A stretch of DNA of 64,000 bases from Sphingomonas edaphi (lineage in GTDB: Bacteria; Pseudomonadota; Alphaproteobacteria; Sphingomonadales; Sphingomonadaceae): positions 124,001-188,000 of the forward strand of contig NZ_QXTF01000003.1 in assembly GCF_003583725.1 (NCBI RefSeq). The letters are read 5' to 3'. The stretch's first letter is position 1. Each line of letters starts with the position of its first letter. Shown one piece after another: positions 6,045-60,914 of the stretch. The position numbers and the translations under genes were made by a program. A model generated the notes under the pieces. The model made no database searches and had not been told where the DNA came from. It saw only the letters and a program-made list of their open reading frames with translations.

Positions 6045-7807
6045 ATACGATCCATCCGCAGCCAGTTGGGATTGCCTGTCCATGACCGCTTCAGCGCGGC
6101 CTGGGCGGCAGCGGCGAACTGCCTCCGGCCCAATGCCCGTTCGGACGCTGCGAGGCCGTAGAGCGCCCAACCATTGTTTGGATAGCGACCCAGCGCGGCG
6201 GTGAAGGCCTCTTGCGCCTCCTGATAACGGCCTGCCCGGTAGAGCGCGGCGCCGAGCGACTGATGCACCGGATAATACCAGAAGGGCGGTTCCATGTAGG
6301 GAATGCGCGCTTCGATCTCGATCGCCTTCCGGTAAAGGTCGATCGCGTGAGGCAGGCGGCCGTTGCCGGCGGCGAAGCGGGCGCGGGCGACAGTTTCCGC
6401 CAGCTCCAGCAAGTCAGGCGCAGGCACGCCCTGGTCGATCATCGTCTGGAACTGGCCAGATTGGCGCAAGCGCGTCAGCGACGCGATTTCGCGATCGAAG
6501 GCAGCGCGGTTGCGCTGGCTCGCATAGGCAGTGGCACGCGCATAATGCCGCATGGCCGCGACATAGGGGAGTCGCGGATCCGGCGCTCGCATCGCCAGTA
6601 CCTGCGCCGGCGCGGCAAACTGGGCGGCGGCGAAATAGGGGGCGGCGTTGACTGCCTGGATCCAGGCGATCTTGGTGCTGGTCTCGGTGTCGAGAATTGA
6701 TTGAAGTTTGCGCGCCTCGCTGATCGCGGTGGCCATGTCGCCCGACATTTGAGCCGAGGTCACGATGAAGTGGACGTTGTGCGGATAATAGCCGTAGCGG
6801 ACCATGCCGCGGTCGTTGCTCGCCTTGATATAGGCTTCGTCGGCGCGGGCGGCGTCCACGTTGACCCGGATGGAGTCTTTCCAGCGGCCTAGCCGATAAT
6901 AGATGTGAGCCGGCATGTGGACGAGGTGGCCCGCGCCAGCAGCGAGGGGCTTCGCGAGCCGGTCGGCGGCGGCCTCGGCGCGTTTCGGGTCAGGGCCATT
7001 TTCCATCAGATGGATGTAAAGGTGAGCAGCCTGCGGATGCTCGGGACTGCGGGCAAGCACGGTCTCGACGAGGCTGACTGCCTCGCCAAGGCGCGGCTGC
7101 GGTGTCTTGTCGGGGGTCCAGTAATTCCAAGGAAGCGTGTCCATCGCAGCTTCGGCGGCGAGTAAGGCTACATCATCATTGCCGGGATGCGCTTTGGCGG
7201 CGGCGAGCATGGCGTCGGCGTATGCGGCGTCGAGCGCTGCGCGGTCGGCCTTTGGATCGGCAGAGTAGCGAAGCAGCATTGCAGCCGTCAGCGCCTTCTC
7301 CGACGGGCTTGCCTTGTTCGCCATCCAGTTGGCGTAGCGTGCCACGCCGATTGCGCGGTCGTTGGTCGCGGGGTCCATAGGCGCGTTGATATTGGGGCCG
7401 TGCGCCATCGCTTCGCCCCACCAGCACATGGCACAGCTCGGATCGATGGCCTGCGCAGCGCGGAACGACGCGATCGCGGCGGCATGGTTGAACCCGTAGG
7501 CGTAGCTGAGCCCCTGGTTGAAATAGCGCCGGGCCAGCGGATTGTTCGCAGTGATGGCAAAGTCGACCTTGCCCAGGTCGTCGCGGAGCGGGACGTTGGG
7601 GAGCGTCGCGCCCTGGACGGCGGCAGCGGCGATGGCGAGCCTGGCCCGCATCGACTGTGGCCCTGTCTTGCCGGTGCAGAGGCTGGCCATGCGGACGGTC
7701 GGGTCAAGCAATGCCAATTGTTCGGAAGAGTAGGTTGGGCTCGGCGCCACCCCGACCAATGCGGTGGCCGCCAAAGCAAGGGCTGTTACGCGCACGACAT
7801 CCGTCAT
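6041..7807 (-). CDS. Secreted tetratricopeptide-repeat protein with CxxC and His-rich motifs
   Basis: Protein of 588 residues with a putative N-terminal signal peptide (about 1-28). It is built of helical TPR-like repeats: an early repeat around residues 90-130 ending in a Cys-x-x-Cys pair (SCAMCWWGEAM, about 123-126), and a clear C-terminal set near 490-570. Between them lies the His-rich motif GHLVHMPAHIYYRLGRW and later YGYYPHNVHF, which could bind metal or haem. ATG at 7807 has GGGAGG about 5 nt upstream and is preferred to the ATG at 7822. The role is unknown. It sits between phaZ (convergent, sharing CTAG) and a drug exporter on the same strand. Confidence 0.85.
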   Translation of the reverse strand: MTDVVRVTALALAATALVGVAPSPTYSSEQLALLDPTVRMASLCTGKTGPQSMRARLAIAAAAVQGATLPNVPLRDDLGKVDFAITANNPLARRYFNQGLSYAYGFNHAAAIASFRAAQAIDPSCAMCWWGEAMAHGPNINAPMDPATNDRAIGVARYANWMANKASPSEKALTAAMLLRYSADPKADRAALDAAYADAMLAAAKAHPGNDDVALLAAEAAMDTLPWNYWTPDKTPQPRLGEAVSLVETVLARSPEHPQAAHLYIHLMENGPDPKRAEAAADRLAKPLAAGAGHLVHMPAHIYYRLGRWKDSIRVNVDAARADEAYIKASNDRGMVRYGYYPHNVHFIVTSAQMSGDMATAISEARKLQSILDTETSTKIAWIQAVNAAPYFAAAQFAAPAQVLAMRAPDPRLPYVAAMRHYARATAYASQRNRAAFDREIASLTRLRQSGQFQTMIDQGVPAPDLLELAETVARARFAAGNGRLPHAIDLYRKAIEIEARIPYMEPPFWYYPVHQSLGAALYRAGRYQEAQEAFTAALGRYPNNGWALYGLAASERALGRRQFAAAAQAALKRSWTGNPNWLRMDRI

Positions 7808-7848: not shown

Positions 7849-9267
7849 TTACACCGTTTCGGTCCCGGAGTCAGCGTGCCGCCAGTTACCGGACAAGCCG
7901 AAGAAGGCGGCTACGCCGCCCAAGGCTGCCACGACGCCCATCATCCTCAGCGCCATAGCGAACGGGCGGAGCAGCGCATCGCCTTGCGCGACAAGCACGG
8001 CCCCGAGCAGCGCAACGATAATCAAGCCTCCGAGCCTCGAGAGGGCGCTGTTCAAGCCGGAAGCCATGCCGGTCTGGTGGCGGCTAACTGAGGCGAGGAC
8101 GGTGCTGGTCAACGGGGCGACGGCCAACGCCATTCCGGTCGACATTACCAGGATCGCAGGGAAAGCGTGGGTCCAGTAGCTTTGACTTTCGGCGAGGCGC
8201 GACGCGAGGGCGAGACCAATGCCAACAATGATTGGGCCGATCGTGAGTGGCCAGCGCGGCCCGATCTTTTCCGCTAGCTTACCCATCATGCGGGAGGCCC
8301 CGCCGATCAGTATGGACAGCGGTAGAAGGGCCAATCCTGCCTCGACGGGCGAATAACCCCCCGCCTCGATCAGGGTGAAGGGGATAAGCAGCATGGCCCC
8401 GCCAAATGCGCCGTAGAGCAGGAAGGTCATCAGGTTTAGCGATGTGAAGCAGCGATTGCCGAATAGCGACAACGGCACCATCGCCTTGTCGCCGAGACGC
8501 CGCTCGTAGAGTCCGAAGGCAACCAGCAGCGCGAGTCCGGCGGCGATCGCTCCGCCCGCCAGCGTCGACAATGCAAAGGTCTGCGACCAGAGTGTCAGAC
8601 CGTAGGTCGCTGCGCCCAGCCCAAGCGTCGCTAGCGCCGCGCCGCCGAGGTCGAGTCGTGCGCTGCCCGGATCGCTGACTTCTTCGACGCGGGTCAGTGC
8701 GATGACAATGGCGACACCGACGAAGGGGATGTTGACGTAAAAAATACTGGGCCAGCCGAACTGCTGCACGAGCCAGCCGCCGGCGAGTGGAGCAATTGCC
8801 GCGCTTATCGCACCGGCCGCGGCCCAGGTGCCCACAGCCTGGCCGCGGGCCTCGCCGCTATAGGCGCCGTTGAGCAGGGCGAGACTGTTGGGCAGCAGCA
8901 ACGCCGCGCCGACGCCCTGCAATGCACGCCCTGCCAATAGGGTTTGGAGCGATCCCGCCAGCGCGCATACCAGCGAAGCGATACCGAACAGGACGGTACC
9001 GATGACCAGCCAGCGGCGCCGTCCTTGGTGATCGCCGAGCGCCCCACCGAGAAGAATCAGCGCGGCGAGGGGAAGGGTGTAGGCGTTGACGACCCACTGG
9101 ACCTCGGCTGCCCCGGCACCGGTATCGGCACGAATGGCGGGCAGAGCGACGTTGAGGATCGAACCATCGATGAAGCTGAGCGATGAGGCCGCGACGGACA
9201 TGACCAGCGTCCATGCCGGGTGGGCGACATCATGCTGGCCCGGCCTCTCCCGCGCGCGGGCGCTCAT
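7849..9267 (-). CDS. MFS transporter, DHA2-like drug:H+ antiporter family
   Basis: Major facilitator of 472 residues with roughly 13-14 hydrophobic segments, as in the DHA2 (EmrB/QacA) family. Diagnostic stretches include SSLSFIDGSILNVALPAI in helix 1 and LGDHQGRRRWLVIG in the helix 2-3 loop. It probably exports drugs or other small toxic molecules using the proton gradient. The start at 9267 overlaps the stop of the upstream small gene in ATGA, which argues for translational coupling and against the longer frame from 9303. No HlyD-type adaptor is next to it, unlike the emrAB pair at 45-48 kb. Confidence 0.88.
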   Translation of the reverse strand: MSARARERPGQHDVAHPAWTLVMSVAASSLSFIDGSILNVALPAIRADTGAGAAEVQWVVNAYTLPLAALILLGGALGDHQGRRRWLVIGTVLFGIASLVCALAGSLQTLLAGRALQGVGAALLLPNSLALLNGAYSGEARGQAVGTWAAAGAISAAIAPLAGGWLVQQFGWPSIFYVNIPFVGVAIVIALTRVEEVSDPGSARLDLGGAALATLGLGAATYGLTLWSQTFALSTLAGGAIAAGLALLVAFGLYERRLGDKAMVPLSLFGNRCFTSLNLMTFLLYGAFGGAMLLIPFTLIEAGGYSPVEAGLALLPLSILIGGASRMMGKLAEKIGPRWPLTIGPIIVGIGLALASRLAESQSYWTHAFPAILVMSTGMALAVAPLTSTVLASVSRHQTGMASGLNSALSRLGGLIIVALLGAVLVAQGDALLRPFAMALRMMGVVAALGGVAAFFGLSGNWRHADSGTETV

Positions 9268-11302: not shown

Positions 11303-12487
11303 CTAAAGTACCTCGAACAATCCGGCCGCACCCATGCCGCCGCCGATGCACATCGTAGTCACGACATAGCGAGCTCCGCGTCGCTTGCCTTCGAGTAGGG
11401 CGTGGCCCGAGAGGCGCGCACCGCTCATGCCATAGGGGTGACCGATCGAGATGGCGCCGCCGTTGACGTTAAGCAGGTCGTTCGGGATGCCGAGCTTGTC
11501 ACGGCAGTAGAGCACCTGCACCGCGAACGCTTCATTCAGCTCCCAAAGGCCGATGTCGTCCATCTTGAGGCCGAAGCGTTCCAGCAGCTTCGGTACCGCG
11601 AAGACTGGGCCGATACCCATTTCGTCTGGCTCGGTGCCGGCGACAGCCATGCCGACATAGCGGCCAAGCGGTTCCAAGCCGCGCTTCTCGGCGAGCGTGG
11701 CGTCCATTAGGACACACGCAGACGAGCCATCACTGAGCTGGCTCGCGTTGCCGGCGGTGATGCTGGTGCCGGGGCCGAGGACCGGTTGGAGCGATTGCAG
11801 ACCCTCGATCGTCGTGTCAGGACGATTGCCTTCGTCCTTGTCGATCGTGATCTCACGCTTGGAGACTTCGCCGCTTTCCTTGTCCTTGATCGTCATGGTG
11901 ACGTTCGCAGGGACAATCTCGGCGGATAGGCGGCCTTCGGCCTGCGCGGCGGCGGTACGCTGCTGCGACTGAAGTGCATATTCGTCCTGCGCCTCACGGC
12001 TGATGCCGTAGCGCTGGGCGACCGTTTCTGCGGTGCCTAGCATCGGCATGTAGACGTCCTTGTGCATGGCGATCAGCGACGGATCGCCGCCAATTCGCAT
12101 CTCCGGTGTCTGGACGAGGCTGATCGAGTCCTGGCCGCCGGCGGCTACAATATCCATTCGGTCGACGATAATCTGCTTGGCGGCGATGGCGATGGCCATG
12201 AGGCCCGACGCGCACTGGCGGTCGATGGTTTGGCCGCTGACGGTGACGGGGCAGCCGGCGCGGAGCGCGACTTGGCGACCGATGTTGCCGGCCTGCGTGC
12301 CCTGGGTGAGGACGGCACCCCAAACGACATCATCGATTTCGCCCGCCTCGATACCCGCACGTTCGATGGCAGGAGTGAGCGACAGGGCGCCGAGCGTTGC
12401 GCCAGGTGTAGCGTTGAACGCGCCCTTATAGGCTCGGCCGATCGGAGTGCGTGCTGTGGAGACGATGACGGCGTCGCGGACGGACAT
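11303..12487 (-). CDS. Acetyl-CoA C-acyltransferase (thiolase)
   Basis: Thiolase of 394 residues that cleaves 3-ketoacyl-CoA with CoA (beta-oxidation) or condenses acetyl-CoA units. The acylated nucleophile is Cys92 in [11 protein letters not shown]. The His of the active site is in [10 protein letters not shown] and the second Cys in [12 protein letters not shown] near the C-terminus. The length is typical. The MaoC-like hydratase gene starts upstream on the same strand and ends 10 bp before this start, so the pair probably works on enoyl/3-hydroxyacyl-CoA intermediates. A FadA-like versus PhaA-like role cannot be settled from the sequence. Confidence 0.93.
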
Positions 12488-49365: not shown

Positions 49366-49544
49366 CCGCTCCGCACACTATGACGGGCGCATTAGTCGCT
49401 GCGAAGCGCCTATTTCGGAGCCAGCCATGATGAGAATGACCGCTGCTGGAAGAGTCGCCGTTCCGCCTTTCTCACACGCATGCATGGCTAATTTCCATTC
49501 TCGGGCTTTGTGCTCTTGCCGTAATGGCCATCAGGAGAAGGAGA

Positions 49545-50174
49545 ATGGAACGCTCTGAATTAGACCCTACCGACAACCACGATATGTGGACTTCGGGTCG
49601 TAAGCTTGGGGCAAAGCGACCGCTGAAACTTCAGCAGATTTGGGCGATCAGGTTTTGGCTGGATCGCGAGAAGAGGGTGAGGGACCGCGCGCTGTTTGAC
49701 TTGGCGATCGACAGTAAGCTTCGGGGCTGCGATCTCGTGAAAGTACGTATTTGTGATCTAGTGTCCGGCGGAAAGGTGCGCAGTCGCGCCATCGTCATTC
49801 AGCAAAAAACCAAGCGGCCTGTACAGTTTGAGTTGATGGAGCCTGCGCGTTCCAGCCTGCTAGCATGGTTTGAAAAGCGCAAAGGTGGGTTCCAAGATTA
49901 TACGTTTCCGAGCCGGATTGATCACAAGGCACACTTGAGCACCCGGCAATATGCGCGCCTTGTCGATGAGTGGGTAACCGGAATTGGCCTGAGGAAAGAG
50001 GATTACGGAACGCATTCCCTCCGAAGGACCAAGGCTTCGATTATCTATAAGCAGACCGGCAACTTGCGAGCCGTGCAGATACTTCTCGGTCACACCAAGA
50101 TTGAAAGCACTGTTCGCTATCTTGGGGTCGACGTCGAGGATGCTCTGACCATAGCCGAAAGCACTGAAATTTAA
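49545..50174 (+). CDS. Minimal tyrosine recombinase (catalytic domain only)
   Basis: 209-residue integrase-type recombinase. Catalytic residues are visible: Arg in DSKLRGCDLVKV, Lys in QQKTKRPVQFE, His-x-x-Arg in GTHSLRRTKA, His in LLGHTKIESTV and the nucleophile Tyr in VRYLGVDVED. It lacks most of the usual N-terminal SAM-like/core-binding domain. AGGAGAAGGAGA directly before 49545 makes this ATG the likely start instead of 49524. It sits at the left border of an orphan-rich region and has a hairpin after its stop. Confidence 0.88.
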   Translation: MERSELDPTDNHDMWTSGRKLGAKRPLKLQQIWAIRFWLDREKRVRDRALFDLAIDSKLRGCDLVKVRICDLVSGGKVRSRAIVIQQKTKRPVQFELMEPARSSLLAWFEKRKGGFQDYTFPSRIDHKAHLSTRQYARLVDEWVTGIGLRKEDYGTHSLRRTKASIIYKQTGNLRAVQILLGHTKIESTVRYLGVDVEDALTIAESTEI

Positions 50175-51169: not shown

Positions 51170-51543
51170 GCTGTAGGCTGCCAACGCGACGCCGCCGAAC
51201 GGACTAGGCTTTGGATCCCAACGGTGGAGGGTTCCCGGCTGACCACAACAGCCGGGAGCCGGCTGTTCGCTTGCAACCGCCTTCCAAGCATTGCGCCAGC
51301 CCACGATGCCCGTTTCATGTTTCGGCCAAGTTGTTCAGCGAAGCATTGCGAAGCGAGCAGCGACTCAAGGCGGTCATCAGCGGAGAGTCGAACGTCGTCA
51401 CTGTAGTGGCGACCGCGCACCAAGATCTGGTCCGAGACCACAATATATCTAAAGTTCGCTTGTTCCAGAGGCACTCCAGTTTTGGATTGCATTCAACTGC
51501 GAACGGGTGCAGTCTGCGGCGCTAAAGCCTGAGGAGAAGTGCG
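51170..51543. other. Gene-free gap of 374 bp
   Basis: No convincing gene on either strand. It holds a 9-bp hairpin (51233-51241 with 51249-51257, 7-nt loop, no T-run) and, at 51305-51380, a fragment resembling the dispersed intergenic repeat, ending in GCGGTCATCAG. Confidence 0.5.
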
Positions 51544-52071
51544 ATGAACGCAGTCATTCTCTTGGCGACCGCGGCGTTCACGATCGCAAGCGGAGTATCC
51601 CCTGAACCCACAATTCCGCGACCGGAAGCTGCATCTCACTTTACAATTTTGGGTGTAGGGACCGCTGCCGGATCGCCAGCACGCTATTACCAAGTTGCCT
51701 CCTCTGCGGATGTCGACGGGGACGGCCGTGTTGACACCGGAGTGCTGAAGGTCAGATGCGTGAACGGTCAGGTTGCCGCTGCCAGTTACCGCTATCATGA
51801 GTGGAGATGGAACAATGCCGCCGGGCGAACGGCCGGCGACCCTTCACCACGATTAGAGGGTGACGTAGCGCTTGTGAAGAACTGGGATGCCAGTACGCCC
51901 GAGCTGCGCAGCATGAAGGTACACTATGATGTCAAAAAGAACACCAAGGCTCGGCTTGCAGCGCAGAGCTCGGCTCAAAACGAGTGGCTTGAGTTGACGC
52001 TGAGCGGAACGGCTGACCTTTGCACCGATGGCGCGCGCACCAAGAATCTGAACAGCTCTAAGTCGAATTAA
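51544..52071 (+). CDS. Hypothetical secreted protein, 175 aa
   Basis: 175-residue protein. The start MNAVILLATAAFTIASGVSP looks like a short signal peptide. The body contains SADVDGDGRVDTGVLKVRC, an EF-hand/dockerin-like Asp-rich loop (DVDGDGRVD) that may bind calcium. It ends in a Ser/Asn-rich tail. GAGGAG 9 nt upstream supports the start. I do not recognise the family. A repeat element begins about 90 bp downstream. Confidence 0.65.
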   Translation: MNAVILLATAAFTIASGVSPEPTIPRPEAASHFTILGVGTAAGSPARYYQVASSADVDGDGRVDTGVLKVRCVNGQVAAASYRYHEWRWNNAAGRTAGDPSPRLEGDVALVKNWDASTPELRSMKVHYDVKKNTKARLAAQSSAQNEWLELTLSGTADLCTDGARTKNLNSSKSN

Positions 52072-52163
52072 TCAAGAATGTCGCGCAGCGACGCATGCAG
52101 TGACCGGATCCCTGTTCGAACATCTCTTTCTTGATCGCTGTGCAGAGGTGGACAAACGAGCAC

Positions 52164-52304
52164 ACAATGTTCGTCTTCCAACCCGCGCAGAGTCGTGACG
52201 TTCCAGGTAATCGCAATCGCGTATCCGGTCGTTCGCTCAGCAATTCGCGGCGCGGCTGACGGTGACACATTCCGGCTATGACCGCGACCCATTGCGGACA
52301 TTAG
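52164..52304. repeat. Dispersed intergenic repeat, copy 1
   Basis: Left end like AATGTTCGTCTTCCAACCC (52166-52184), middle box CCGGTCGTTCGCTCAGCAA (52225-52243), right end GCGACCCATTGCGGACATTA (52284-52303). Ends are inverted relative to each other. About 141 bp, in the spacer after the 175-aa gene. Confidence 0.6.
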
Positions 52305-52325
52305 GGTGGTGCTTCAGAAAGCGGT

Positions 52326-52736
52326 ATGGTTCGCTTTCTTGTGCTTGCGTTCGCACTCTTCATCCTTGCTTCGTGCAGCCCTCAAAGCAGCCGCATCGAT
52401 GGCCCGTATCTGCTCGACATCACGGACATCCCAGAAGATGCGATGGTTTGTTACGAGCTACCAAAGGGCGATTGCATTGGCCGTATCGAGCAGACCGTGT
52501 TCACCGTCGGCTCCAACGAAGACTACATCGTTGCAGCAAGGCATCCGCACAAGTTTGAAGACACGACGCTCGACCGGTCGCGCACCGAATATTTCTACCT
52601 CATTCGAGCGCTTGACGGCCCTTTGGTTGACCCCGACGTCACTGTGCGGGGCCCGTTCAGCCGAGCGGATTTTGAGCGGGAGCGGCAACGCCTGGACTTG
52701 CCTGCCTTCTCCCACGAGATTGCGAGCCTGAACTGA
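52326..52736 (+). CDS. Small lipoprotein, 136 aa
   Basis: 136-residue putative lipoprotein: MVRFLVLAFALFILASCSPQ carries the lipobox LASC. The mature part contains IGRIEQTVFTVGSNEDYIVA and a C-terminal charged helix FSRADFERERQRLDL. No family recognised. It lies between two repeat-like stretches (copy 1 on its left; a degenerate copy, 52748-52865, on its right). Confidence 0.68.
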   Translation: MVRFLVLAFALFILASCSPQSSRIDGPYLLDITDIPEDAMVCYELPKGDCIGRIEQTVFTVGSNEDYIVAARHPHKFEDTTLDRSRTEYFYLIRALDGPLVDPDVTVRGPFSRADFERERQRLDLPAFSHEIASLN

Positions 52737-52747
52737 CACGCGGCTGC

Positions 52748-52865
52748 GGCAGCGCTCCACCCTGCAACGACCTCACGCCGGCCCAGGTAGCTTTGATCCG
52801 TTTCCGACCGTTCGTTCAGCGTAGCGTTGAAGTCGGGCTGCGACCCAAAGCTGACTCTGCGGACC
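52748..52865. repeat. Dispersed intergenic repeat, degenerate copy
   Basis: Box A is clear (CCGACCGTTCGTTCAGCG, 52804-52821). The left end (CGCTCCACCC) and right end (GCGACCCAAAG then CTGCGGAC) are diverged. It begins 11 bp after the lipoprotein stop. Confidence 0.4.
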
Positions 52866-52931
52866 TCCGTAAAGCAGGGGCACCAGCACCCCTGCGTTGA
52901 GTAAGGTTCATGCGCCCGTTACATGCTACCT

Positions 52932-53900
52932 ATGACCGTCGTTGCCGCTTACCTTTATCGGAATGGACACCGAGTCCGTGAGGTGTCGATCGATGAGAAA
53001 ATCGAGAGCGCCGAGCAGAAGAGCGAGTTTGCCTGGATTGGGATAGCCGACCCTTCCGAAGAAGAGATGTCGAAACTCGCAGCGAACTATGATCTTCATC
53101 CGCTCGCGGTCGAAGATGCGATCAAGGCAAACCAACTTCCAAAAATCGACGTTTACGACGATCAGCTATTCGTGGTGGCACGCACCGCCCATCTGGTGGA
53201 TGACCATATTGACTATGGCGAGACGGCAATCTTTGTCGGGCACAGCCACATCATCAGCGTGCGGCATGGATCGACCAGAGCTCACACGACGCTTCGCGAG
53301 CAGTTGGAGAAGACGCCGCGTTTCCTGATGCACGGCGTCGACTATGTGCTTCACGCCATCTTGGATTTCGTGGTTGATGGCTACCTCCCTCTCATCACTG
53401 ACCTCGAAGAAGAGGTCCTCGAGATGGAGACCAAAGCGCTCAATGGCATGCTTGGGCGCGAGGAAGTCAACCGCATCTTCACTGTGAGACGTGAACTGAT
53501 CCGCTTCCAGCGCATCCTTGGACCGATGGGAGAAGTAGCGCAAAAGTTGGCGCGGCTGGAGTTGCCGTCCATTGACGCTGAGGTCCGCATCTACTTCCGA
53601 GACGTTCAGGACCACGTTCGCCGAACCCAGGCACGCGTGGACAGCTTACGCGAGGTCCTCACGAGCGTCTTCGAACTGAGCACTTTGCTGGAACAGCAAC
53701 AGCAGGGCCGCATCACCCGTCAGCTGGCGGCCTGGGCCGCCATTCTGGCGGTGCCAACGGCAATTGCCGGCATCTATGGCATGAACTTCGAGAACATGCC
53801 TGAACTAACCACGCGCTACGGGTATTTCGTCATCGTCGTGACTATCGGGGTGATCTGCCTGATACTGTATCGCCGTTTCCGTAAGCTCGGCTGGCTTTAA
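52932..53900 (+). CDS. corA: CorA-family magnesium/cobalt transporter
   Basis: 322-residue CorA. The N-terminal cytoplasmic domain is followed by a long stalk helix and two C-terminal membrane helices. The selectivity motif GMN is in GIYGMNFENMPEL, and the last residues are charged. It forms a pentameric channel for Mg2+ and possibly Co2+/Ni2+. The start at 52932 (MTVVAAYLYRNG) matches homologues better than 52923. No Mg-responsive leader is visible upstream. Confidence 0.92.
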   Translation: MTVVAAYLYRNGHRVREVSIDEKIESAEQKSEFAWIGIADPSEEEMSKLAANYDLHPLAVEDAIKANQLPKIDVYDDQLFVVARTAHLVDDHIDYGETAIFVGHSHIISVRHGSTRAHTTLREQLEKTPRFLMHGVDYVLHAILDFVVDGYLPLITDLEEEVLEMETKALNGMLGREEVNRIFTVRRELIRFQRILGPMGEVAQKLARLELPSIDAEVRIYFRDVQDHVRRTQARVDSLREVLTSVFELSTLLEQQQQGRITRQLAAWAAILAVPTAIAGIYGMNFENMPELTTRYGYFVIVVTIGVICLILYRRFRKLGWL

Positions 53901-54034
53901 GTGGAGTCAGACTTCCGATTCGCGATGAGCCGCAAATGGGCGAGCATCCACAAGAGTCCAACGACGAGATAGTCGACCGCGGATATAAGTGCTGCGACAT
54001 AGGTCTCTAGTCCATTGGTGGCGCGTCGCTCCAT
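53897..54034 (-). CDS. Possible 45-aa membrane peptide
   Basis: Short frame starting MERRATNGLETYVAALISAV and ending LIANRKSDST, with one hydrophobic helix (about residues 12-32) between charged ends. Its stop overlaps the corA stop. It has no strong ribosome site. The amphiphilic layout looks real, but the length leaves doubt. Confidence 0.4.
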   Translation of the reverse strand: MERRATNGLETYVAALISAVDYLVVGLLWMLAHLRLIANRKSDST

Positions 54035-54066
54035 GTCTATCGGTTATCGTTCCTAATGCCAGCTTT

Positions 54067-54513
54067 CTACCCAAAGTTGCGCGTCAACTTTCGACCCACA
54101 ACGGACCACTGATTGCTATCGGTAGCCGCCACCTCTTCGATTGCCTCGACTAGCTCGCAATCCGGTTCGGGGCCTGTGTTCAGCGCGATGTGCGCCACTC
54201 GATTTGTGACCCAACTGCGCAACTCGTCCTTTGTCAGAGGAAGCTCGAAAATGACGCCTGCGTGATAAGTATCCGTCCACCGCAATCGGCATTTCAGCGG
54301 CGGTAGATCCGGCAGGCGCAGAATAACGACGCCCAGCCTGCGGATGGAGGTAACCGTCCGTAGTTTAGCCCCGCCTTCGGAGATGTCCTGAATGTAACCG
54401 GCGTAGTGTCGCTGTCCGATCTGAATGCGGGCACGACACTGGATGCCGAAACGTGGATGCTTGCGCCGTCGTTGGGTTGGGGTGGACAAATCTGACGTAC
54501 GACAAAGATACAT
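54067..54513 (-). CDS. PilZ-domain protein, 148 aa
   Basis: 148 residues with one PilZ domain. The arginine motif QRRRKHPRFGIQCRARI lies at about 15-31, followed by GYIQDISEGGAKLRT with the DxSxxG motif, so c-di-GMP binding is likely. The C-terminal ~45 residues are acidic and unassigned (EPDCELVEAIEEVAAT). It is divergent from the AT-rich membrane gene across a gap that contains a repeat copy. Confidence 0.85.
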   Translation of the reverse strand: MYLCRTSDLSTPTQRRRKHPRFGIQCRARIQIGQRHYAGYIQDISEGGAKLRTVTSIRRLGVVILRLPDLPPLKCRLRWTDTYHAGVIFELPLTKDELRSWVTNRVAHIALNTGPEPDCELVEAIEEVAATDSNQWSVVGRKLTRNFG

Positions 54514-54577
54514 CTCAGGCAGGCCTCGTATCCATTGGACGACGGATTTAGAGCGCTACCTCAAAGCTACCGTTAAC

Positions 54578-54693
54578 GAAGCGACCGCTTCGGGATAAAA
54601 TCCCAAGGTTACTGGCGGCCCGAGGTGCCGTTTTTGATTCATTCGTTCAGCAAACGACATGATGGGCGGGCTGCGACCCATTGCGGTCGTTAA
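54578..54693. repeat. Dispersed intergenic repeat, copy 2
   Basis: Left end GACCGCTTCGGG (degenerate), box A ATTCGTTCAGCAAA (54641-54654), right end GCGACCCATTGCGGTCGTTA (54673-54692). Same order and orientation as copy 1. Confidence 0.55.
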
Positions 54694-54790
54694 TCGTGAG
54701 TGTCACTGTCCCGCAACGAGTCCGTTTGCGCACATGCCTGCTTGGAAGCGGACTTTGACTGTTGCATTCCTATCCAATTGGTAGGCCATA

Positions 54791-55099
54791 ATGATATTAT
54801 TATTATTAGTTCTTGCGTTAATTTCACTGCAAGTATTCATGGCAAGCAAATCTGCGGCTGTAATTGAGATCAAAAAGCCTAGCCTGAACTACAAGCAATG
54901 TTTTGACGCATTTTTTACCCACGGCCGGATTTTTGCTCGGATTTCCATAGTTAGTATTTTTATATTATTGCATATTGCTGCGAATATTTTGTTGGATGGA
55001 GGCGCTCTGAAATATGCGCAGTTTGCGTCGTTCCTTGGGGCGTTAATGGCGGTGGCGGCGATCCACCTTCATTATGAAAGTAAAATACTGGGCGATTAA
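54791..55099 (+). CDS. AT-rich small membrane protein, 102 aa
   Basis: 102 residues with about three hydrophobic helices: MILLLLVLALISLQVFM, then ISIVSIFILLHIAANILL, and a C-terminal one ending AAIHLHYESK. The coding bases are visibly AT-rich (runs such as TATTATTATTATTAG near the start), unlike the neighbours. This suggests recent acquisition. Family not recognised; gene boundaries rest on the ATG at 54791 with AGG 6 nt upstream. Confidence 0.65.
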   Translation: MILLLLVLALISLQVFMASKSAAVIEIKKPSLNYKQCFDAFFTHGRIFARISIVSIFILLHIAANILLDGGALKYAQFASFLGALMAVAAIHLHYESKILGD

Positions 55100-55334
55100 G
55101 CAACTTGGCGTCGGCATGCCAACCCATTGCGACGCGCATCTGTACCGCTGGCCGTGATCCAGTTTCCGGCCGTTCCTTCACCTTAGTCTAGGAAGTCGGA
55201 CGTCGACCAAAAGTCGCCATTCAACCCCCGCTACGACCGACAATGAAGCCCAGGAAAAGGCGTTTCGTAGCTGCAAAGCGGAATTTCATCGCCCGTGTAT
55301 CGACGGCTAAGCAGGAGACTGATAGCGACAGACG

Positions 55335-56819
55335 ATGCCGTTGCATTCGTCCCTTAAGGCCCTGCTCGATAACGTTCTCGACGCTGTCGTGGTGGTTGAT
55401 CGCGACGGTATCATTCGCGGATGGAATCAGGTCGCCGAACGATCATTCGGGTGGACAGAGAAAGAAGCGATTGGGCAGTCACTAGGCGAAATGATTGTCC
55501 CGCCAGAACACCGCGATGGCCACCGACGGGGCATGGAACGCTTCAACCGAACCGGCGAAGCGCATGTACTCAACAAAAGGCTGACGCTCAGTGGACTTAC
55601 CAAAAGCGGACTAACAATTCCGGTTGAGCTGACGATCACTGAGGTCCGGACGCCGACCGGAGCAGCATTTGTCGGATTCCTGCGCGATGTCAGCGACCAA
55701 GAGCGGGCTGCTCTGCAGACCAAGCAGCTCGCGCTTGAAAGCCGCCTGATGTTTGAATTGACCGCCCTCGCATCCGAACGCCCAACCCTTGATGAGGCAT
55801 TTGAAGCGGCGCTCGATGCAATCTGTGAACTGACTGGTTGGCCCTTAGGTCATGCCTATGACGTGTCCGAGGACGGAGAACGGATGGTATCGCGCGGCTG
55901 GAGCCGAGATGCTCGCGAAATTGCGCCTGCATTCGTGGATCGGACAGAGAAAACAACGTTCTCGAGGGGAGTCGGCCTGCCCGGGCGAATCCTCGACACG
56001 GGCAAGTCGGCGTGGATTGAGCGTACTAGCAAGGATGCCAACTTTCCTCGTGCGGGCCTAGGATTTGAAAGCGCGTTCGGGTTTCCCGTTTTGAGCCGAG
56101 GACGATGCATCGCGATCTTCGAATTTTTTTCTCGCGATTCCATGCCTCCCGACGAGCATATTCTGAAATTGGTGCAATCGCTGGGCGCTCAAGTCGGGCG
56201 GGTGTTCGAGCACCGACGGACTGAAGAGCGGCGTCAGATTCTCATGAACGAACTCGCGCATCGGACGAAAAACCTGTTGTCCGTAATCCAAGGCATCGCA
56301 CAGCAAACTTTCGGCAAGAAGGACCAAGTCGACTCTAATGAAGCCTTGCAGCTGTTTTGCGCGCGACTGAGCGCGCTTGGACGGGCCCAGACGGTATTGT
56401 TCGGCGATAAACCTGGTGAGCTTGCGCTAGGAGAAATAATTAGACGTTCGGTCGAGGGCTGCGGAGTCGATTTCCAGCGCGTTGGCTATAATGGACCGCT
56501 CATTGAACTGGGAAGTTCAGCAAGCGTCATGATGTCGCTTGCAATACATGAATTGTGCACCAATTCGTTCAAGTACGGTGCGTTGTCGGTCGGCGAAGGG
56601 AGGGTTGCAATCACTTGGGAAGAGTCATCCAGCGGACCCAAGGGCTTCAATCTGCGCTGGGAAGAGTTGGGCGGCCCACCAGTCGTTCCACCTCTGAAAA
56701 CTGGTTTCGGGCATCAAATTCTGCAACGTGCAGTTGAACGCGAAACAGGCGGACGAGCACAGATCAGTTTCGAAGTAAGCGGGCTCGTTTATGAGCTTAA
56801 CGATGCTTCATTCTTCTGA
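55335..56819 (+). CDS. PAS-GAF sensor histidine kinase, HWE family
   Basis: 494-residue soluble kinase. PAS domain at about 5-125 (VVVDRDGIIRGWNQVAERSF), GAF at about 150-295, then HWE-type transmitter. The phosphoacceptor His is in MNELAHRTKNLLSVIQG near residue 308, the N box in IHELCTNSFKYGAL and the Trp-x-Glu motif in LRWEELGGPPV. No cognate response regulator lies next to it, so it is an orphan kinase. Similar kinases serve light, redox or general stress responses; the ligand is unknown. Confidence 0.9.
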   Translation: MPLHSSLKALLDNVLDAVVVVDRDGIIRGWNQVAERSFGWTEKEAIGQSLGEMIVPPEHRDGHRRGMERFNRTGEAHVLNKRLTLSGLTKSGLTIPVELTITEVRTPTGAAFVGFLRDVSDQERAALQTKQLALESRLMFELTALASERPTLDEAFEAALDAICELTGWPLGHAYDVSEDGERMVSRGWSRDAREIAPAFVDRTEKTTFSRGVGLPGRILDTGKSAWIERTSKDANFPRAGLGFESAFGFPVLSRGRCIAIFEFFSRDSMPPDEHILKLVQSLGAQVGRVFEHRRTEERRQILMNELAHRTKNLLSVIQGIAQQTFGKKDQVDSNEALQLFCARLSALGRAQTVLFGDKPGELALGEIIRRSVEGCGVDFQRVGYNGPLIELGSSASVMMSLAIHELCTNSFKYGALSVGEGRVAITWEESSSGPKGFNLRWEELGGPPVVPPLKTGFGHQILQRAVERETGGRAQISFEVSGLVYELNDASFF

Positions 56820-56868
56820 GATTCATTGAGCGCGGGGGCGGTCGGCTGATCGTGCGGAAATAGCCTGT

Positions 56869-56959
56869 GCAATGTCCGCTTTCCACCCATTTCAGCCGTT
56901 CGCGAGGTGCGCGCGGGTTGGTCCATCTACGGCCGATAAGGGTGGAAAGCGGTCATTAG
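56869..56959. repeat. Dispersed intergenic repeat, short hairpin copy
   Basis: Near-perfect 18-bp inverted repeat: AATGTCCGCTTTCCACCC (56871-56888) and GGGTGGAAAGCGGTCATT (56940-56957), 17 of 18 pairs, 51-nt loop. The right end supplies the TAA stop of the adjacent 147-aa gene. Confidence 0.75.
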
Positions 56960-57399
56960 CCGGACACCGTCGTTCGGTTCCGCATGGTCCAATAAAGCGC
57001 GCCGCTGATTGCCGTACTTCCGATCAACCAAACGAGGTCGCGCCAACCCCAAATCCCGCCTGACCAATATGGATTTGATCGGATCAGCGCGATCCAAATC
57101 CCTGGCGTAAACGCCGTGACAACCGCGAAATCCAAGCCAGCCAATAGAAGGATGAATCTCAAAACCGGAGCGCCGGTCCGCTTCGTCAATTTAGGCGCCA
57201 GCGAAATCACGTAGCCTAGCAATGCGGTCCAAACGATGGCGAGCAGCGCATAGGCCTTAATGACCGCGCTTCGCGCTATGTCGGTGAACAATCCATCATC
57301 GAGCTGCAAAAGATACATCACGATTGCCGCGAAAGAGATGAAGTTGATCCCACCGGTCAGAAGCCACGGCATTAGATTTTTCGTTCGGGTCGCTTCCAT
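56956..57399 (-). CDS. Small integral membrane protein, 147 aa
   Basis: 147 residues with about four hydrophobic segments (GINFISFAAIVMYLLQL, AYALLAIVWTALLGYVISL, then a third and fourth near the C-terminus). No signature recognised. The stop codon lies inside the end of a repeat element (TAA in GGCTAATGACCGC on the minus strand), so the present C-terminus may have been set by the repeat insertion. ATG at 57399 is the only good start. Confidence 0.65.
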   Translation of the reverse strand: MEATRTKNLMPWLLTGGINFISFAAIVMYLLQLDDGLFTDIARSAVIKAYALLAIVWTALLGYVISLAPKLTKRTGAPVLRFILLLAGLDFAVVTAFTPGIWIALIRSNPYWSGGIWGWRDLVWLIGSTAISGALYWTMRNRTTVSG

Positions 57400-57422
57400 C
57401 GCAGCCAGTTTGGCGCTTCATC

Positions 57423-57542
57423 CTAATGACCGCAATGGGTCGGCGTTAGTCGCTACGCCATTTGCTGAACGAAGGGCTGGGAACGAGGCAACATCTGCCT
57501 GGCTATTCGTGACTTCTGACCGGGGTGGAAAGCGGTCATTAG
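57423..57542. repeat. Dispersed intergenic repeat, copy 3 (perfect terminal inverted repeats)
   Basis: 120 bp between CTAATGACCGC (57423-57433) and its exact inverse GCGGTCATTAG (57532-57542). Inside are TGGGTCGG, then TTTGCTGAACGAAGGGCTGG (57461-57480) and GGGTGGAAAGC. Confidence 0.8.
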
Positions 57543-57557
57543 CAATTGATGGATGGC

Positions 57558-57935
57558 TCAGCCCTCAGTCCAGAACGAAATTGAGGTGTGTCCCTTCGTC
57601 GCCACCGGGACGCCATTGATATCCTTAGCGGGACCGAACCGCGCCCTCCGCAGCAAAAGCCTGCAAGGTATGGCGTCTAGCCGCTTGTACGCACTGGAAC
57701 GGATCACTTTGCAGCTGCTCACTCGACCATCGGCACCGATGTCAAACGCTATGGTGACGTAGCCCTGCTCGTCAGCCCTGGCGGATGCGTCAGGATAGTC
57801 GGTGGGCTTGATCCAATCACGACGATTCAGAGGCGTTGCGCCACCAAAATCGCTCTCCGGCAGGGACCATGGAGCTTGGGCGAGCGCCGGCGAACAAATC
57901 AGAAGTACACCAAGTGCCGATGACAAAAATTTCAT
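57558..57935 (-). CDS. Secreted TonB-C-domain protein, 125 aa
   Basis: 125 residues. A cleavable signal peptide (MKFLSSALGVLLICSPALAQ) is followed directly by a TonB C-terminal-like domain: DEQGYVTIAFDIGADGRVSS, then CRLLLRRARFGPAKDINGVP. There is no Pro-rich spacer and no retained anchor, so it cannot work as a normal TonB; it is a stand-alone periplasmic version, often annotated energy transducer TonB. ATG at 57935 is chosen since it begins the signal. Confidence 0.72.
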   Translation of the reverse strand: MKFLSSALGVLLICSPALAQAPWSLPESDFGGATPLNRRDWIKPTDYPDASARADEQGYVTIAFDIGADGRVSSCKVIRSSAYKRLDAIPCRLLLRRARFGPAKDINGVPVATKGHTSISFWTEG

Positions 57936-57976
57936 CCAGTCACAATACGTCCGACTTACCCACGTGCAAGGCATTC

Positions 57977-57997
57977 CTAATGTCCGCAATGGGTCGG
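57977..57997. repeat. Isolated end of the dispersed repeat
   Basis: CTAATGTCCGCAATGGGTCG, matching the left end of copy 3; no partner end is seen in the next 150 bp, which lie in coding sequence. Confidence 0.6.
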
Positions 57998-58031
57998 AAG
58001 CTGACGCTAGCGCTATGGCGTCGCCCGCCCG

Positions 58032-58772
58032 TCATCGCTGCGTTCGATCCTTCAGTAGCGGAACGCACAAGGCGAGTTGCATCATCCCGGATTCCGGGTC
58101 GAGCAGCGGAGCGGCCGCGGTAGCTGCCGCCTCGTCGTCGAGCGCCTTCTTTGCCGCCACGAGGGCGGTCCCGCTTTTGCCATCAAGGGCGAGCGCTGCG
58201 GCGCGGTCGGCCTGGCGTGAAAGCGCAGCGCTTTCGTCACCCTTCGACCGCGCCGCCGCTGCCCGATAGGAAGCATGGCAGCCGTTGAGCCGCGGGTCGA
58301 TCACCGAAGCAGGAACCAGAGAGCGAAGCGCAAGCGAGCCGTTGCCGGCTGCTTTGAAAAAGGCTCCGCAGCGCGTATCTTCCGAAGTGCGCCAGTCGGC
58401 GAACTCATCGGCCGAGAGACTCCTTTTCTTTTCCTCGGCCTCTTCCGCATACAAAGCTACGAAGGCGAGCCCCACGTCGTAGTTCATTTCGCCGAAATTC
58501 GCTGCGTCTTCGCCCAGTCGGCCGTGGATCGCATTCAGCCGCTCGTTGGGAAGCGTCGGCTTGCCGGTTCTCTGCAGCCACAGCGCATAGCCGGTGCACT
58601 GCATCTGACTCAGCCGAGCACTCGGCATAGCCGTCAACTTCAGCAGTTGCCCCATGGTTAGCTCATCAAGGGCCGTTCCCGTCTGCTCTTTGCCCTGTCT
58701 AACCTTCTGATCGAGAAATTCTTGGGGCAGCCCCTGCAAGGCAAGTACGGCAAACAGAAGCTGCAGCAACAT
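58032..58772 (-). CDS. Hypothetical secreted protein, 246 aa
   Basis: 246 residues. The N-terminus (MLLQLLFAVLALQGLPQEFL) may be a signal sequence. The rest is helical and Ala-rich (e.g. DESAALSRQADRAAALALDG) with several cysteines (TGYAL preceded by Cys, DTRCGAFF, LNGCHASY, LALCVPLL). No family recognised. A repeat copy lies 53 bp upstream of the start. Confidence 0.65.
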   Translation of the reverse strand: MLLQLLFAVLALQGLPQEFLDQKVRQGKEQTGTALDELTMGQLLKLTAMPSARLSQMQCTGYALWLQRTGKPTLPNERLNAIHGRLGEDAANFGEMNYDVGLAFVALYAEEAEEKKRSLSADEFADWRTSEDTRCGAFFKAAGNGSLALRSLVPASVIDPRLNGCHASYRAAAARSKGDESAALSRQADRAAALALDGKSGTALVAAKKALDDEAAATAAAPLLDPESGMMQLALCVPLLKDRTQR

Positions 58773-58824
58773 CGTCTTTTCCCCCTCTAAAGAGACATTG
58801 CCGCCAGCCTTGATCCGGTCAAGC

Positions 58825-58945
58825 GCAATGCCCGCTTCGGGTCACGGTAAGCCCTGACGCAATTAGCTGTACGAACGACCGGGAACGGTATCGAGGCCGC
58901 CTAGATGAGCGCGACGTCCTAGCGGGGTAGAAAGAGGACATTCAG
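58825..58945. repeat. Dispersed intergenic repeat, copy 4
   Basis: Left end GCAATGCCCGCTTCGGGTC, middle TAGCTGTACGAACGACCGGG (58864-58883), right end GGGGTAGAAAGAGGACATTC. Same order as copy 3 with degenerate ends. It fills the spacer between two divergent small genes. Confidence 0.5.
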
Positions 58946-58968
58946 CTGCGCTGGCGCAGGGTGAAACG

Positions 58969-59322
58969 ATGAAGAAGTCTATCGTCGGAGCGTTGTTCTC
59001 GATCATGATCGCCGCGCCTGCTGGTGCGACGGGCGGGCTAATATGCCGGACTCCCGACCCTCGCCAGATAGAGCTGAGCCTTGTGATCAGCCATACGATA
59101 GTGTCGTCGGTAGTCTCGGCGTCTCTTCGCGAAGGACGGTCAGATGTGCCGGTTCGCGTTGCGCAATCGTGGCTGGATCCCAGTGAATTGCGTCTCGACT
59201 TGGTCGATCCCAATGCCCTTAGGCATGAATTGCGATTACGCGTAAAACGCTACGGCGAAACGTTCGACGGGACGCTGTGGCGGGGCGGCAAGAAGCGCTG
59301 GGTGCGGTGTCGCGAGAGTTAG
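58969..59322 (+). CDS. Small secreted protein, 117 aa
   Basis: 117 residues with a signal peptide (MKKSIVGALFSIMIAAPAGA). The mature chain begins with Cys in GLICRTPDPRQIELSLVISH, continues PVRVAQSWLDPSELRLDLVD and ends basic (GGKKRWVRCRES). The pattern is mostly beta. Two cysteines may form a disulfide. Family unknown. A repeat copy begins 14 bp after the stop. Confidence 0.65.
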   Translation: MKKSIVGALFSIMIAAPAGATGGLICRTPDPRQIELSLVISHTIVSSVVSASLREGRSDVPVRVAQSWLDPSELRLDLVDPNALRHELRLRVKRYGETFDGTLWRGGKKRWVRCRES

Positions 59323-59335
59323 CAGCCGCGCGCTC

Positions 59336-59473
59336 CGCTTGTCCGCAATGGCTCGGCTGGGACCGGTATGGGTTGCCGTGTGCCGTGACATGAAATGCTA
59401 AACGAACAGCCGGAAACGAGATGCGGGCGGCGAAGCGGCACTGAGGCTGGGCGTGGTGAAAGGCGGACATTTT
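59336..59473. repeat. Dispersed intergenic repeat, copy 5
   Basis: Left end CTTGTCCGCAATGGCTCGG (59338-59356), middle ATGCTAAACGAACAGCCGGA (59395-59414), right end AAAGGCGGACATTTT. Same internal order as copy 3. Confidence 0.55.
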
Positions 59474-59533
59474 GCATCCCCGCTGATATGCTTGCGCTGA
59501 AATGGGGGGCTTATCCGCAAATGGCTCATAGGA

Positions 59534-60487
59534 TTGGCGGCCGTCTTAGCCTTAGTTTCAATTTCGTTCTTGGTGAGTCCTTGGCCCAGCATACTTCTGG
59601 TCCGCGCCGTATTTGACCATGGCGCCGCGGAAGCTTCACGGAAGCTGGAGCCGTACTTGCCCTCCGCAGTGGCTACCACCACTCACCGCTACGATCCGGC
59701 CAACCCGAGCGCCGTGCTTGACATCCATCGTGCAGTTGAAGGGGCAACTGGGCCGACGGTTGTTTGGGTGCACGGTGGCGGTTTCGTGTCGGGTCAGCGA
59801 CGCGATATCACCAACTATGCGAAGGTTTTGGCCGGACATGGCTTCACGGTAGTCAACGTCGATTACACAATTGCGCCGGAAGCCCATTATCCGGAACCCG
59901 TCCGTCAGGTGAGCCAAGCCTTGGCCTATCTGAGCCGGGAGGGTGCGAAGCTGAGAGTGAATGCCGACCACATGGTTTTGGCTGGCGACAGCGCGGGTGC
60001 TCAAATTGCTGCTCAAAGCGCGGCGATCATCACTAATCCCGCATATGCCAAGCTTGTAGGTATTGAGCCGGGCATCCGGCCAGAGCAGTTGGCCGGCGCT
60101 CTGCTGTACTGCGGGGTCTACGACATCTCCGGCATGGGGCGCGATGGCGGAATCTTAGGGTGGTTCGTCCAATCAGCAGGATGGGCATACAGCGGCAAAC
60201 GTGAATGGCGGGACGATGCGCGGTTTCGCACCATGTCAGTGGCACCGCACCTCAATAGCAGCTTTCCGCCGGCTTTCGTTAGCGCTGGGAACGCTGATCC
60301 ACTCGGGCCTCAATCCGTGGCCATGGCCAAGGCCCTTAAACAGGCGGGAATTGCGGTCGAGACGTTGTTTTACCCGAGCGATTATAAGCCGCCGCTCGGT
60401 CACGAATATCAATTCGACCTTACTGGTGAGGCCGGTAGGATGGCGCTGAGAAAGTCCGTGACATGGTTGCGACAACTGCCACGCTGA
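59534..60487 (+). CDS. Alpha/beta hydrolase (HSL/carboxylesterase-like)
   Basis: About 317 residues. An N-terminal hydrophobic segment (ALVSISFLVSPWPSILLVRA) precedes a hydrolase of the hormone-sensitive-lipase type. The oxyanion motif is VVWVHGGGFVSGQRR, the nucleophile elbow LAGDSAGAQIA, the acid in SAGNADPLGPQ and the His in LGHEYQF. It probably acts on short-chain esters. The start is uncertain: no ATG is in frame after the stop at 59498, so the TTG at 59534 (or another near codon) is used. The TGA lies in a repeat-like end (CTGATGTCCGC at 60484). Confidence 0.82.
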   Translation: MAAVLALVSISFLVSPWPSILLVRAVFDHGAAEASRKLEPYLPSAVATTTHRYDPANPSAVLDIHRAVEGATGPTVVWVHGGGFVSGQRRDITNYAKVLAGHGFTVVNVDYTIAPEAHYPEPVRQVSQALAYLSREGAKLRVNADHMVLAGDSAGAQIAAQSAAIITNPAYAKLVGIEPGIRPEQLAGALLYCGVYDISGMGRDGGILGWFVQSAGWAYSGKREWRDDARFRTMSVAPHLNSSFPPAFVSAGNADPLGPQSVAMAKALKQAGIAVETLFYPSDYKPPLGHEYQFDLTGEAGRMALRKSVTWLRQLPR

Positions 60488-60500
60488 TGTCCGCTTCGGG
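60484..60500. repeat. Isolated end of the dispersed repeat
   Basis: CTGATGTCCGCTTCGGG; 10 of 11 positions match CTAATGTCCGC. It overlaps the hydrolase stop codon. A full partner end is not clear. Confidence 0.4.
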
Positions 60501-60605
60501 GCGCAGCCAGAACGCCCGTTTCGGACCCAACGACCGGAAACTGAAAAGGAGCGACCTGGATCAGCTCAAGATCTTAGCGAGTGGCAAGTGGGCATTGTCG
60601 CCAAC

Positions 60606-60914
60606 TTATTCCGCTACTGCTGCCGCCTGCGCGCTTGCGACCAGCTCCTGAAGCGCAGCCATGTGCGCGGCGAATGCCTTGCGCCCGGCGCGTGTAAGCG
60701 ACGCCCAGGTACGCTGCCGCCCATCTTGCGCCGCCTTGCGGAGGCGAACGTAGCCCTCCTCGCCCAGCGCGGCGAGATGCTTGGACAGCACGGAGTCGCT
60801 CACCTCCACAATGTCACGAATGGTAGCGAATTCTGCTTCTTCTACGCGGGCGAGGAGTGCTGCGATCTGCAGCCGCGCTGGGGCGTGAAGTGTGGTGTCC
60901 AGCCCGCCGCTCAT
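60606..60914 (-). CDS. Winged-helix transcriptional regulator, 102 aa
   Basis: 102-residue wHTH protein. The recognition helix region is IRDIVEVSDSVLSKHLAALG (about 32-51), followed by the wing KAAQDGRQRTWASLTRAGR. This resembles the ArsR/MarR-like 'HTH_27' group that often regulates itself and a membrane partner. The start overlaps the stop of the upstream membrane gene (ATGA at 60911-60914), so both are coupled. Two palindromes at 61403-61448, ahead of the operon, are candidate operators. Confidence 0.85.
   Translation of the reverse strand: MSGGLDTTLHAPARLQIAALLARVEEAEFATIRDIVEVSDSVLSKHLAALGEEGYVRLRKAAQDGRQRTWASLTRAGRKAFAAHMAALQELVASAQAAAVAE

Follow-up and report, generated by a model that had tools for sequence, protein, structure and literature searches.

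We analysed a window of 64,000 nucleotides from Sphingomonas edaphi (contig NZ_QXTF01000003.1, positions 124,001 to 188,000 of the forward strand), which carries a family of intergenic repeats between 51300 and 60600. These repeats are very probably worn-down recombination sites lying between single-gene mobile cassettes, which form a two-sided array most likely run by a very small tyrosine recombinase. Direct support for this reading comes from the anatomy of the site, the lack of covariation between its arms, duplication breakpoints that fall inside the site, and a site polarity that reverses at the recombinase.

The presence of the family in the window is clear. The left half of the element, searched with up to 3 mismatches, gave 9 matches in 51300-60600 (9.3 kb) and none in the other 54.7 kb, with a single match in the reversed sequence of the whole window. 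The right half gave 6 matches in the same interval and none in the rest of the window or in the reversed control, and the inner box, at up to 5 mismatches, gave 8, 1 and 0 matches, respectively. The 11-bp end alone is a weaker signal (46 matches at up to 2 mismatches vs 29.3 expected). An earlier note on this DNA had described a real, non-coding, repeated family that is clustered and marks an accessory region, which these scans support; its ends, orientations and most of its coordinates stand, including the perfect 11-bp inverted ends of the copy at 57423-57542. In the list of open reading frames (ORFs), the repeats appear to lie close to gene 3' ends.

The common form of the site in relatives of the same genus is 30 bp long, AATGWCCGC(AAT/TTT)-GGGT(C/G)G-AAAGCGGWCATT, with inverted 12-bp arms flanking an asymmetric 6-bp spacer, and 239 of these compact sites were found in 40 fetched loci against none in the reversed control. 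The end-bearing site is genus-wide: a pattern for its left half matched 30 of the 37 genomes of the same genus and 31 of all 61 searched, and the backwards-read control gave 0. One same-genus genome, G008, is a metagenome-assembled genome (MAG) of an uncultured Sphingomonas sp. In an order-level sample it occurs in 65 of 396 genomes, including 18 of 27 from the genus, with two single matches in the backwards control; outside the genus there are one to four copies per genome, except for G339, which has 17. A looser pattern centred on the TTT form matched 25 of 298 family genomes, a count that does not separate the two forms since the pattern also catches the AAT form at two mismatches. The inner box behaves differently. 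At least two further copies lie outside the window in the same genome (C3:214503 and C1:290059), and at up to 3 mismatches it has 5 matches in the window genome and none in the 50 other genomes searched, a confinement that rules it out as the core of the family; at up to 5 mismatches, five box-like matches appear in the fetched loci of relatives (three in L096, one each in L101 and L103).

The arms of the 239 sites do not covary: pairing at variable positions is equal to or below that of within-genome shuffles, and the sole pair above them, the nearly invariant 6-25, exceeds them slightly (0.958 vs 0.954). The arms therefore seem to come from different neighbours, as expected with exchange in the middle of the site; neither a hairpin nor a repeat copied in one piece would be expected to behave in this way. 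A folded attC-like hairpin was rejected on the same result. Sites often form doublets, about 35-57 bp apart, whose two members differ in spacer (L144:8676-8712 and 11930-11965; L155:6599-6656 and 7100-7157; L125:7208-7244 and 8338-8374; and the long-form sites of the window), and a 26-bp version is seen in G010.

The sites separate single genes, with a median spacing of 558 bp. Among 174 intervals of 200-2500 bp between sites of like sense, 170 hold an ORF of at least 60 aa, the largest covering 75% of the interval on average. The largest ORF runs against the site sense in 119 cases and with it in 51, a provisional bias given that the ORFs were called mechanically; most of these ORFs (119 of 170) point towards the recombinase side. 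Thirteen of 20 hand-picked cassette proteins match Pfam families, among them hydrolases, signalling proteins (HD and GGDEF), an rRNA methylase family, a dicarboxylate symporter, a creatininase and a serine recombinase. Five of nine other proteins scanned in the window also match (CorA-type transporter, PilZ, HWE histidine kinase, TonB C-terminal and alpha/beta hydrolase).

To see what moves, the fetched loci were blasted against each other and the ends of near-identical segments were read base by base. Copies 97-99% identical that begin and end in sites were found at separate places of G022 (2085940/2320001, 2086583/2087954 and 2091964/1464805), G014 (C2 151402/715180) and G339 (L128 7089/8675). 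G022 2085940-2086297 and 2320001-2320358 (99%, on opposite strands) start to match at the first base of the left-hand spacer and cease to do so inside the right-hand one; for G022 2091964-2092253 and 1464805-1465094 (97%) the left-hand agreement starts within the spacer, and G014 C2:151402-151781 and 715180-715559 (98%) diverge directly after the spacer on the right. In the four best-read pairs, none of the eight ends falls outside the 30-bp site. Four are in the spacer or at its edge; the others extend into the outer arm, in which the two copies resemble each other, but do not leave the site. Eight in-array duplicates (at least 85% identity), drawn from 17 segments with those at the edge of a fetched stretch excluded, have 21 of their 32 ends within 20 bp of a site centre, compared with 6% for shifted positions, and in five of them all four ends are at sites. 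Recombinase modules end in sites as well (G022 2313558-2315911/1388466-1390821, 91%; G010 1016574/886713, 85%), and do so in three genera, with module ends in other taxa readable in part only.

The window itself provides an example. The cassette at 59368..60504 (plus strand), with an alpha/beta hydrolase gene at 59534-60487 (PF07859), is repeated in its own genome at G000 C3:214474-215613 (88% over 1140 bp), the homology extending from a spacer-like hexamer inside one long-form site (59336..59473, plus) to just after the spacer of the next, where a left half-site and spacer (60484..60503, plus) close the cassette. These boundaries define a mobile unit composed of spacer, interior, right half, gene and left half, with the interior and right half travelling with the next gene. 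As read from such alignments, the moving unit is the gene between two elements and not the element itself. Long tandem repeats of about 200 and 276 bp, respectively, were also observed at G004 C1:1035708-1041164 (L103) and G022 C1:1356546-1359052 (L089).

Site sense is constant between neighbours, minus to the left of a recombinase and plus to its right. At 12 recombinase loci, some of which had suggested this rule, 97 of the 101 sites within 15 kb obey it. Neighbours up to 3 kb apart in the fetched loci agree in sense in 207 of 217 pairs, and the nine pairs that span a recombinase are all opposite. The pattern extends to other genera: G427 has eight minus sites on the left and nine plus sites on the right, and G339, of a third genus, has seven minus and four plus, not counting the two nearly palindromic sites on either side of the enzyme, which are matched on both strands. 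A looser, arm-based scan was applied to five hand-picked loci (L144, L148, L146, L155 and L216). L144 (G343; 16 matches, control 0) contains two recombinases, each between outward sites with the same arms and other spacers, one match being unclear by spacer; L148 and L146, from Sphingomonas MAGs, follow the rule at 7 of 7 and 4 of 4 sites (controls 2 and 0); and on the left side of L155, an unclassified proteobacterial contig (11 matches, control 1), the layout is again seen with other spacers, eight sites sharing one sense and a ninth being unclear. Clusters with no recombinase of this size in their stretch run one way (two in G339, those of G220, G196 and G145, and that of G174 at 295 kb); the exception is a second G174 cluster, at 1142 kb, where the sense changes over 274 bp.

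The recombinases at the centre of these arrays are about 200 aa long and consist of the catalytic domain only. R67, K95, H164, R167, H190 and Y199 are invariant in 31 aligned members. The window encodes one of 216 aa at 49524..50174 (plus strand; PF00589, E 1.7e-19), in which alignments and a structure model point to the catalytic fold of a tyrosine recombinase and the catalytic residues are present. Its AlphaFold2 model has a mean pLDDT (predicted local distance difference test) of 82.2; residues 1-28 fall below 50 and the remainder is the catalytic domain, with no core-binding domain. The nearest structures by Foldseek are XerA, XerH and Cre (E<=1e-6). Four scanned recombinases scored far under the cut-offs for XerC, XerD and IntI (for TIGR02249, IntI, the window protein reached 23.1 bits vs a cut-off of 265), and the NCBIfam models PRK09870 and PRK09871 match weakly, at 16-25 bits vs cut-offs of 221-222. 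The passages of PMC8138268 on simple recombinases describe a core-binding plus a catalytic domain, and recombinase classification is treated in parts of that paper and of PMC3414803.

Relatives of the window recombinase at 59-61% identity sit inside site clusters of other genomes. When groups are defined by identity to the window protein, it appears closer to a group that is sister to the array recombinases. Relatives occur in 98 of 298 family genomes (E<=1e-30, fragments included) and in at least 579 genome-contig stretches, 80 of which were kept, from alpha-, beta- and gammaproteobacteria. They are also found on 445 plasmid records at E<=1e-15 (361 cover most of the query and 164 are at 60-80% identity) and in 29 phage records, 28 of them below 60% identity. 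Of the 445 plasmid records, 177 are predicted to be conjugative, enteric hosts included. An accessory recombinase of IS91 type was considered because the recombinase is so widespread; two annotated regions gave no IS91 (one had no transposase among 9 features, and in the other the adjoining gene is an IS1182 transposase), no search having been aimed at the IS91 family. A constant partner gene of the recombinase was not visible by eye in the ORF maps. Among recombinases near that of the window in the same genus, L072-L075, L102 and L103 have a TGA just upstream of an MGHAIYDP-like start; as the TGA precedes the likely start, the gene may be intact. The copies of G007 and G009 are split over two frames, and G325 has a 64-aa recombinase fragment at C2:536045-536188, between minus sites (532226 and 533079) and a plus site (536238).

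In the mechanism that we propose, the element would be a simple dif/lox-type recombination site, with two inverted 12-bp arms that probably bind the recombinase and an asymmetric 6-bp spacer that would be the place of strand exchange. The DNA between neighbouring direct sites, usually one gene, could be excised or inserted as a cassette, presumably in circular form and between sites with matching spacers, and every insertion would leave another site of the same sense. The small tyrosine recombinase, carried on a module with two outward-pointing end sites, would act at these sites, and arrays would grow on both sides of the module with opposite site sense. An outward site at each module end, together with one direct-repeat site per inserted cassette, would account for the main polarity pattern. 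The evidence that suggests the small recombinase as the enzyme is its position and the polarity of the sites around it.

The window array would be an old example, with most sites degenerate, an extra interior of 60-100 bp that would move with the following cassette, and a centre (56.9 kb) that no longer holds a recombinase. Recognised sites are minus to the left of 56.9 kb and plus to its right. On the left lie the long-form sites at 52164..52304 (left half 52285-52302, inner box 52219-52241, right half 52166-52183) and 54578..54693 (left half 54674-54691, right half unrecognised at up to 4 mismatches), and the degenerate long-form site at 52748..52865 (left half 52841-52858, box 52798-52820), all on the minus strand. 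On the right, besides the site next to the duplicated cassette, are the plus-strand long-form sites at 57423..57542 and 58825..58945, the latter from the half-site scan. The copies listed in the earlier note were recovered, and that list lacked a degenerate minus site at 55160..55221 (box 55160-55182, left half 55204-55221), a weak left half-site with 3 mismatches at 51361..51378 (minus) and a weak right half at 54055-54072, all three seen in the half-site scan. Two of its entries required correction: what had been called a single end at 57977 is a compact 30-bp site with overlapping left and right halves (57979..58008, plus), and the supposed full copy at 56869..56959 is the polarity centre, where a right half on the minus strand (56871-56888) stands back to back with one on the plus strand (56940-56957) and the site sense flips. 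We regard this layout as the same two-sided array with an emptied centre, judging from the arrangement of the sites. Because the recombinase lies about 7 kb to the left, and because sites of this spacer class can mostly not be recognised around members of its group in the genus, we regard the array as an eroded product of the cassette system and do not assign its building to the window's own recombinase.

Several observations weigh against the small recombinase and its cassettes as the general explanation. The distance of about 7 kb between the sense flip of the window and its recombinase is one of them, and in the arm scan the three loci of the window genome gave 3 matches vs 2 in the control. 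At 14 loci in other genera that scan gave 26 matches vs 11, and outside the family it was moderately above control (126 vs 42 at 80 loci). Ten loci hold recombinases that are nearer to that of the window or otherwise fall outside the main array group, and at six of these no site was recognised in the 15 kb of sequence fetched, although the G339 recombinase (68% identity, nearer to the window's) does centre an array. Ten of the 217 neighbour pairs break the sense rule. One of the two sites on the right side of L155 is in the wrong sense, and in L216, a gammaproteobacterial contig (3 matches, control 0), the two sites of the gggtcg class stand the wrong way round; these, at L216:7378 and 10590, flank the recombinase. 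Two later loci obey the polarity throughout (G325 11/11 and G387 8/8, together 19/19), but they were found by Pfam search and fetched because sites were already listed nearby. Among the other small recombinase frames, the 50 kb around G220 193622 contain none of the listed sites and G387 2690610 is accompanied by a single one, of the sense expected, in a tally that leaves out G196 (two), G026 and G145 1776006. Three duplicates of G010 have 0, 0 and 1 of 4 ends at recognised sites, the sites there being composite or the recombinase truncated. In addition, one genome per species was compared, and excision, a circle or an empty site in a sister strain are not among the observations.

A further point concerns G014 and G174, which have 47 and 52 sites and no recombinase of the small family at E<=1e-30, all their PF00589 matches lying in frames of at least 306 aa. 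These two genomes have the most sites of the order sample, and may hold enzyme-free clusters or an unknown second enzyme. They favour an alternative in which the same cassette system is served by another enzyme, either the host XerCD or an unknown tyrosine recombinase, with the small recombinase as a frequent passenger, as do the 3 to 10 PF00589 matches found in each of the ten genomes searched. Against it stand the reversal of polarity at the small recombinase, the sites at the ends of its module in three genera, and arms that are unlike the pdif arms given in PMC13141974; we consider this alternative unlikely.

A REP/MITE-like repeat (repetitive extragenic palindrome or miniature inverted-repeat transposable element) that spreads whole, its copies later serving homologous recombination that rearranges the genes, agrees with short palindromic intergenic repeats present many times per genome. 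The earlier note had read the family as mobile or REP/MITE-like, and a real repeated family it is; the element as the mobile unit is not supported, given that the arms do not covary and duplicated segments break inside the site. Neighbours also keep a constant sense, and the REP mobiliser, a Y1 transposase (PF01797), was found in only 1 of 23 same-genus genomes by a search that matched 5 of 14 control genomes. A REP family with its own transposase was rejected on this rarity together with the covariation and breakpoint results, and we hold the broader repeat explanation to be very improbable. Elements acting at the RNA level, such as terminators or processing hairpins, would explain inverted arms in intergenic positions, but hardly the lack of compensatory change between the arms, the absence of any Rfam family above its gathering score in 51900-60800 (four sub-threshold matches) or a largest-ORF sense not strictly tied to the site (51 same, 119 opposite), and are extremely unlikely.

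Beyond the cassette array run by the small recombinase, a wider interpretation can be put forward, which we consider evenly balanced between true and false: that this is a second, independent cassette-capture system in Proteobacteria, with a recombinase family of the catalytic domain only, one conserved arm sequence, many exchangeable spacers, a mobile module with outward sites and two-sided single-gene arrays. The family would comprise the relatives in alpha-, beta- and gammaproteobacteria that share about 58-77% identity and those on the 445 plasmid records, and paired sites with different spacers (GGGTCG/GGGTGG, gggcgca/cgggat and tagcca/gggtca) would be two separate addresses that order the array. 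Its standing is lowered by the moderate excess over control outside the family and by the contrary polarity of L216. The textbook example of site-specific recombination that captures genes is the integron; if the interpretation is true, a second such system, which has a different enzyme, sites of the double-strand type and growth in two directions, would imply that cassette arrays arose more than once, and a function would be provided for a recombinase family that annotated records call only 'tyrosine-type recombinase/integrase'. Among the matches listed from the open PubMed Central (PMC) literature, subscription papers being outside the scope, none describes these sites or arrays, and a literature search by site sequence gave no link by title or abstract among the matches listed.

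Compared with known systems, REP elements and their Y1 transposases share short palindromic intergenic repeats in many copies, but that transposase was not found in 22 of the 23 same-genus genomes, and here the element is not copied whole or moved as a unit. FimB/FimE-type small DNA invertases are tyrosine recombinases of about 200 aa, which is the size of the array recombinases, and their models PRK09870/PRK09871 match weakly; they differ in that many cassettes are involved here and not the inversion of one switch. The pdif modules of Acinetobacter plasmids have sites of the form arm, 6-bp spacer, arm, crossover within the site and shuffled modules; here 8 of 8 best-read ends fall inside a site with a 6-bp spacer. 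In the sections of PMC13141974 that deal with these modules, spacer identity is important, the arms are XerC and XerD sites (ATTTCGTATAA/TTATGTTAATT type) and the sense alternates along the plasmid. The arms found here are AATGWCCGCTTT and its inverse and not XerC and XerD sites, all sites on one side share a sense, and the centre is occupied by a small recombinase.

The integron offers a parallel in organisation: a tyrosine recombinase is found next to arrayed cassettes, most of them with one gene, and sites of about 30-140 bp separate them, as we see here. Clusters without an enzyme occur in both, CALINs (clusters of attC sites lacking the integrase) being the comparable case on the integron side. 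Yet no IntI (TIGR02249) was found above the cut-off in 61 genomes, with weaker matches in all 61, and a classical integron was rejected on this result; the 14 control genomes also gave none and so provide no positive control. The attC sites fold as a single strand and their arms are kept complementary, whereas the arms here do not covary; the modelled recombinase has no core-binding domain; and in place of a single attI with growth on one side, arrays extend on both sides with opposite sense. In our best reading, the system works like an integron or a pdif module but is neither.

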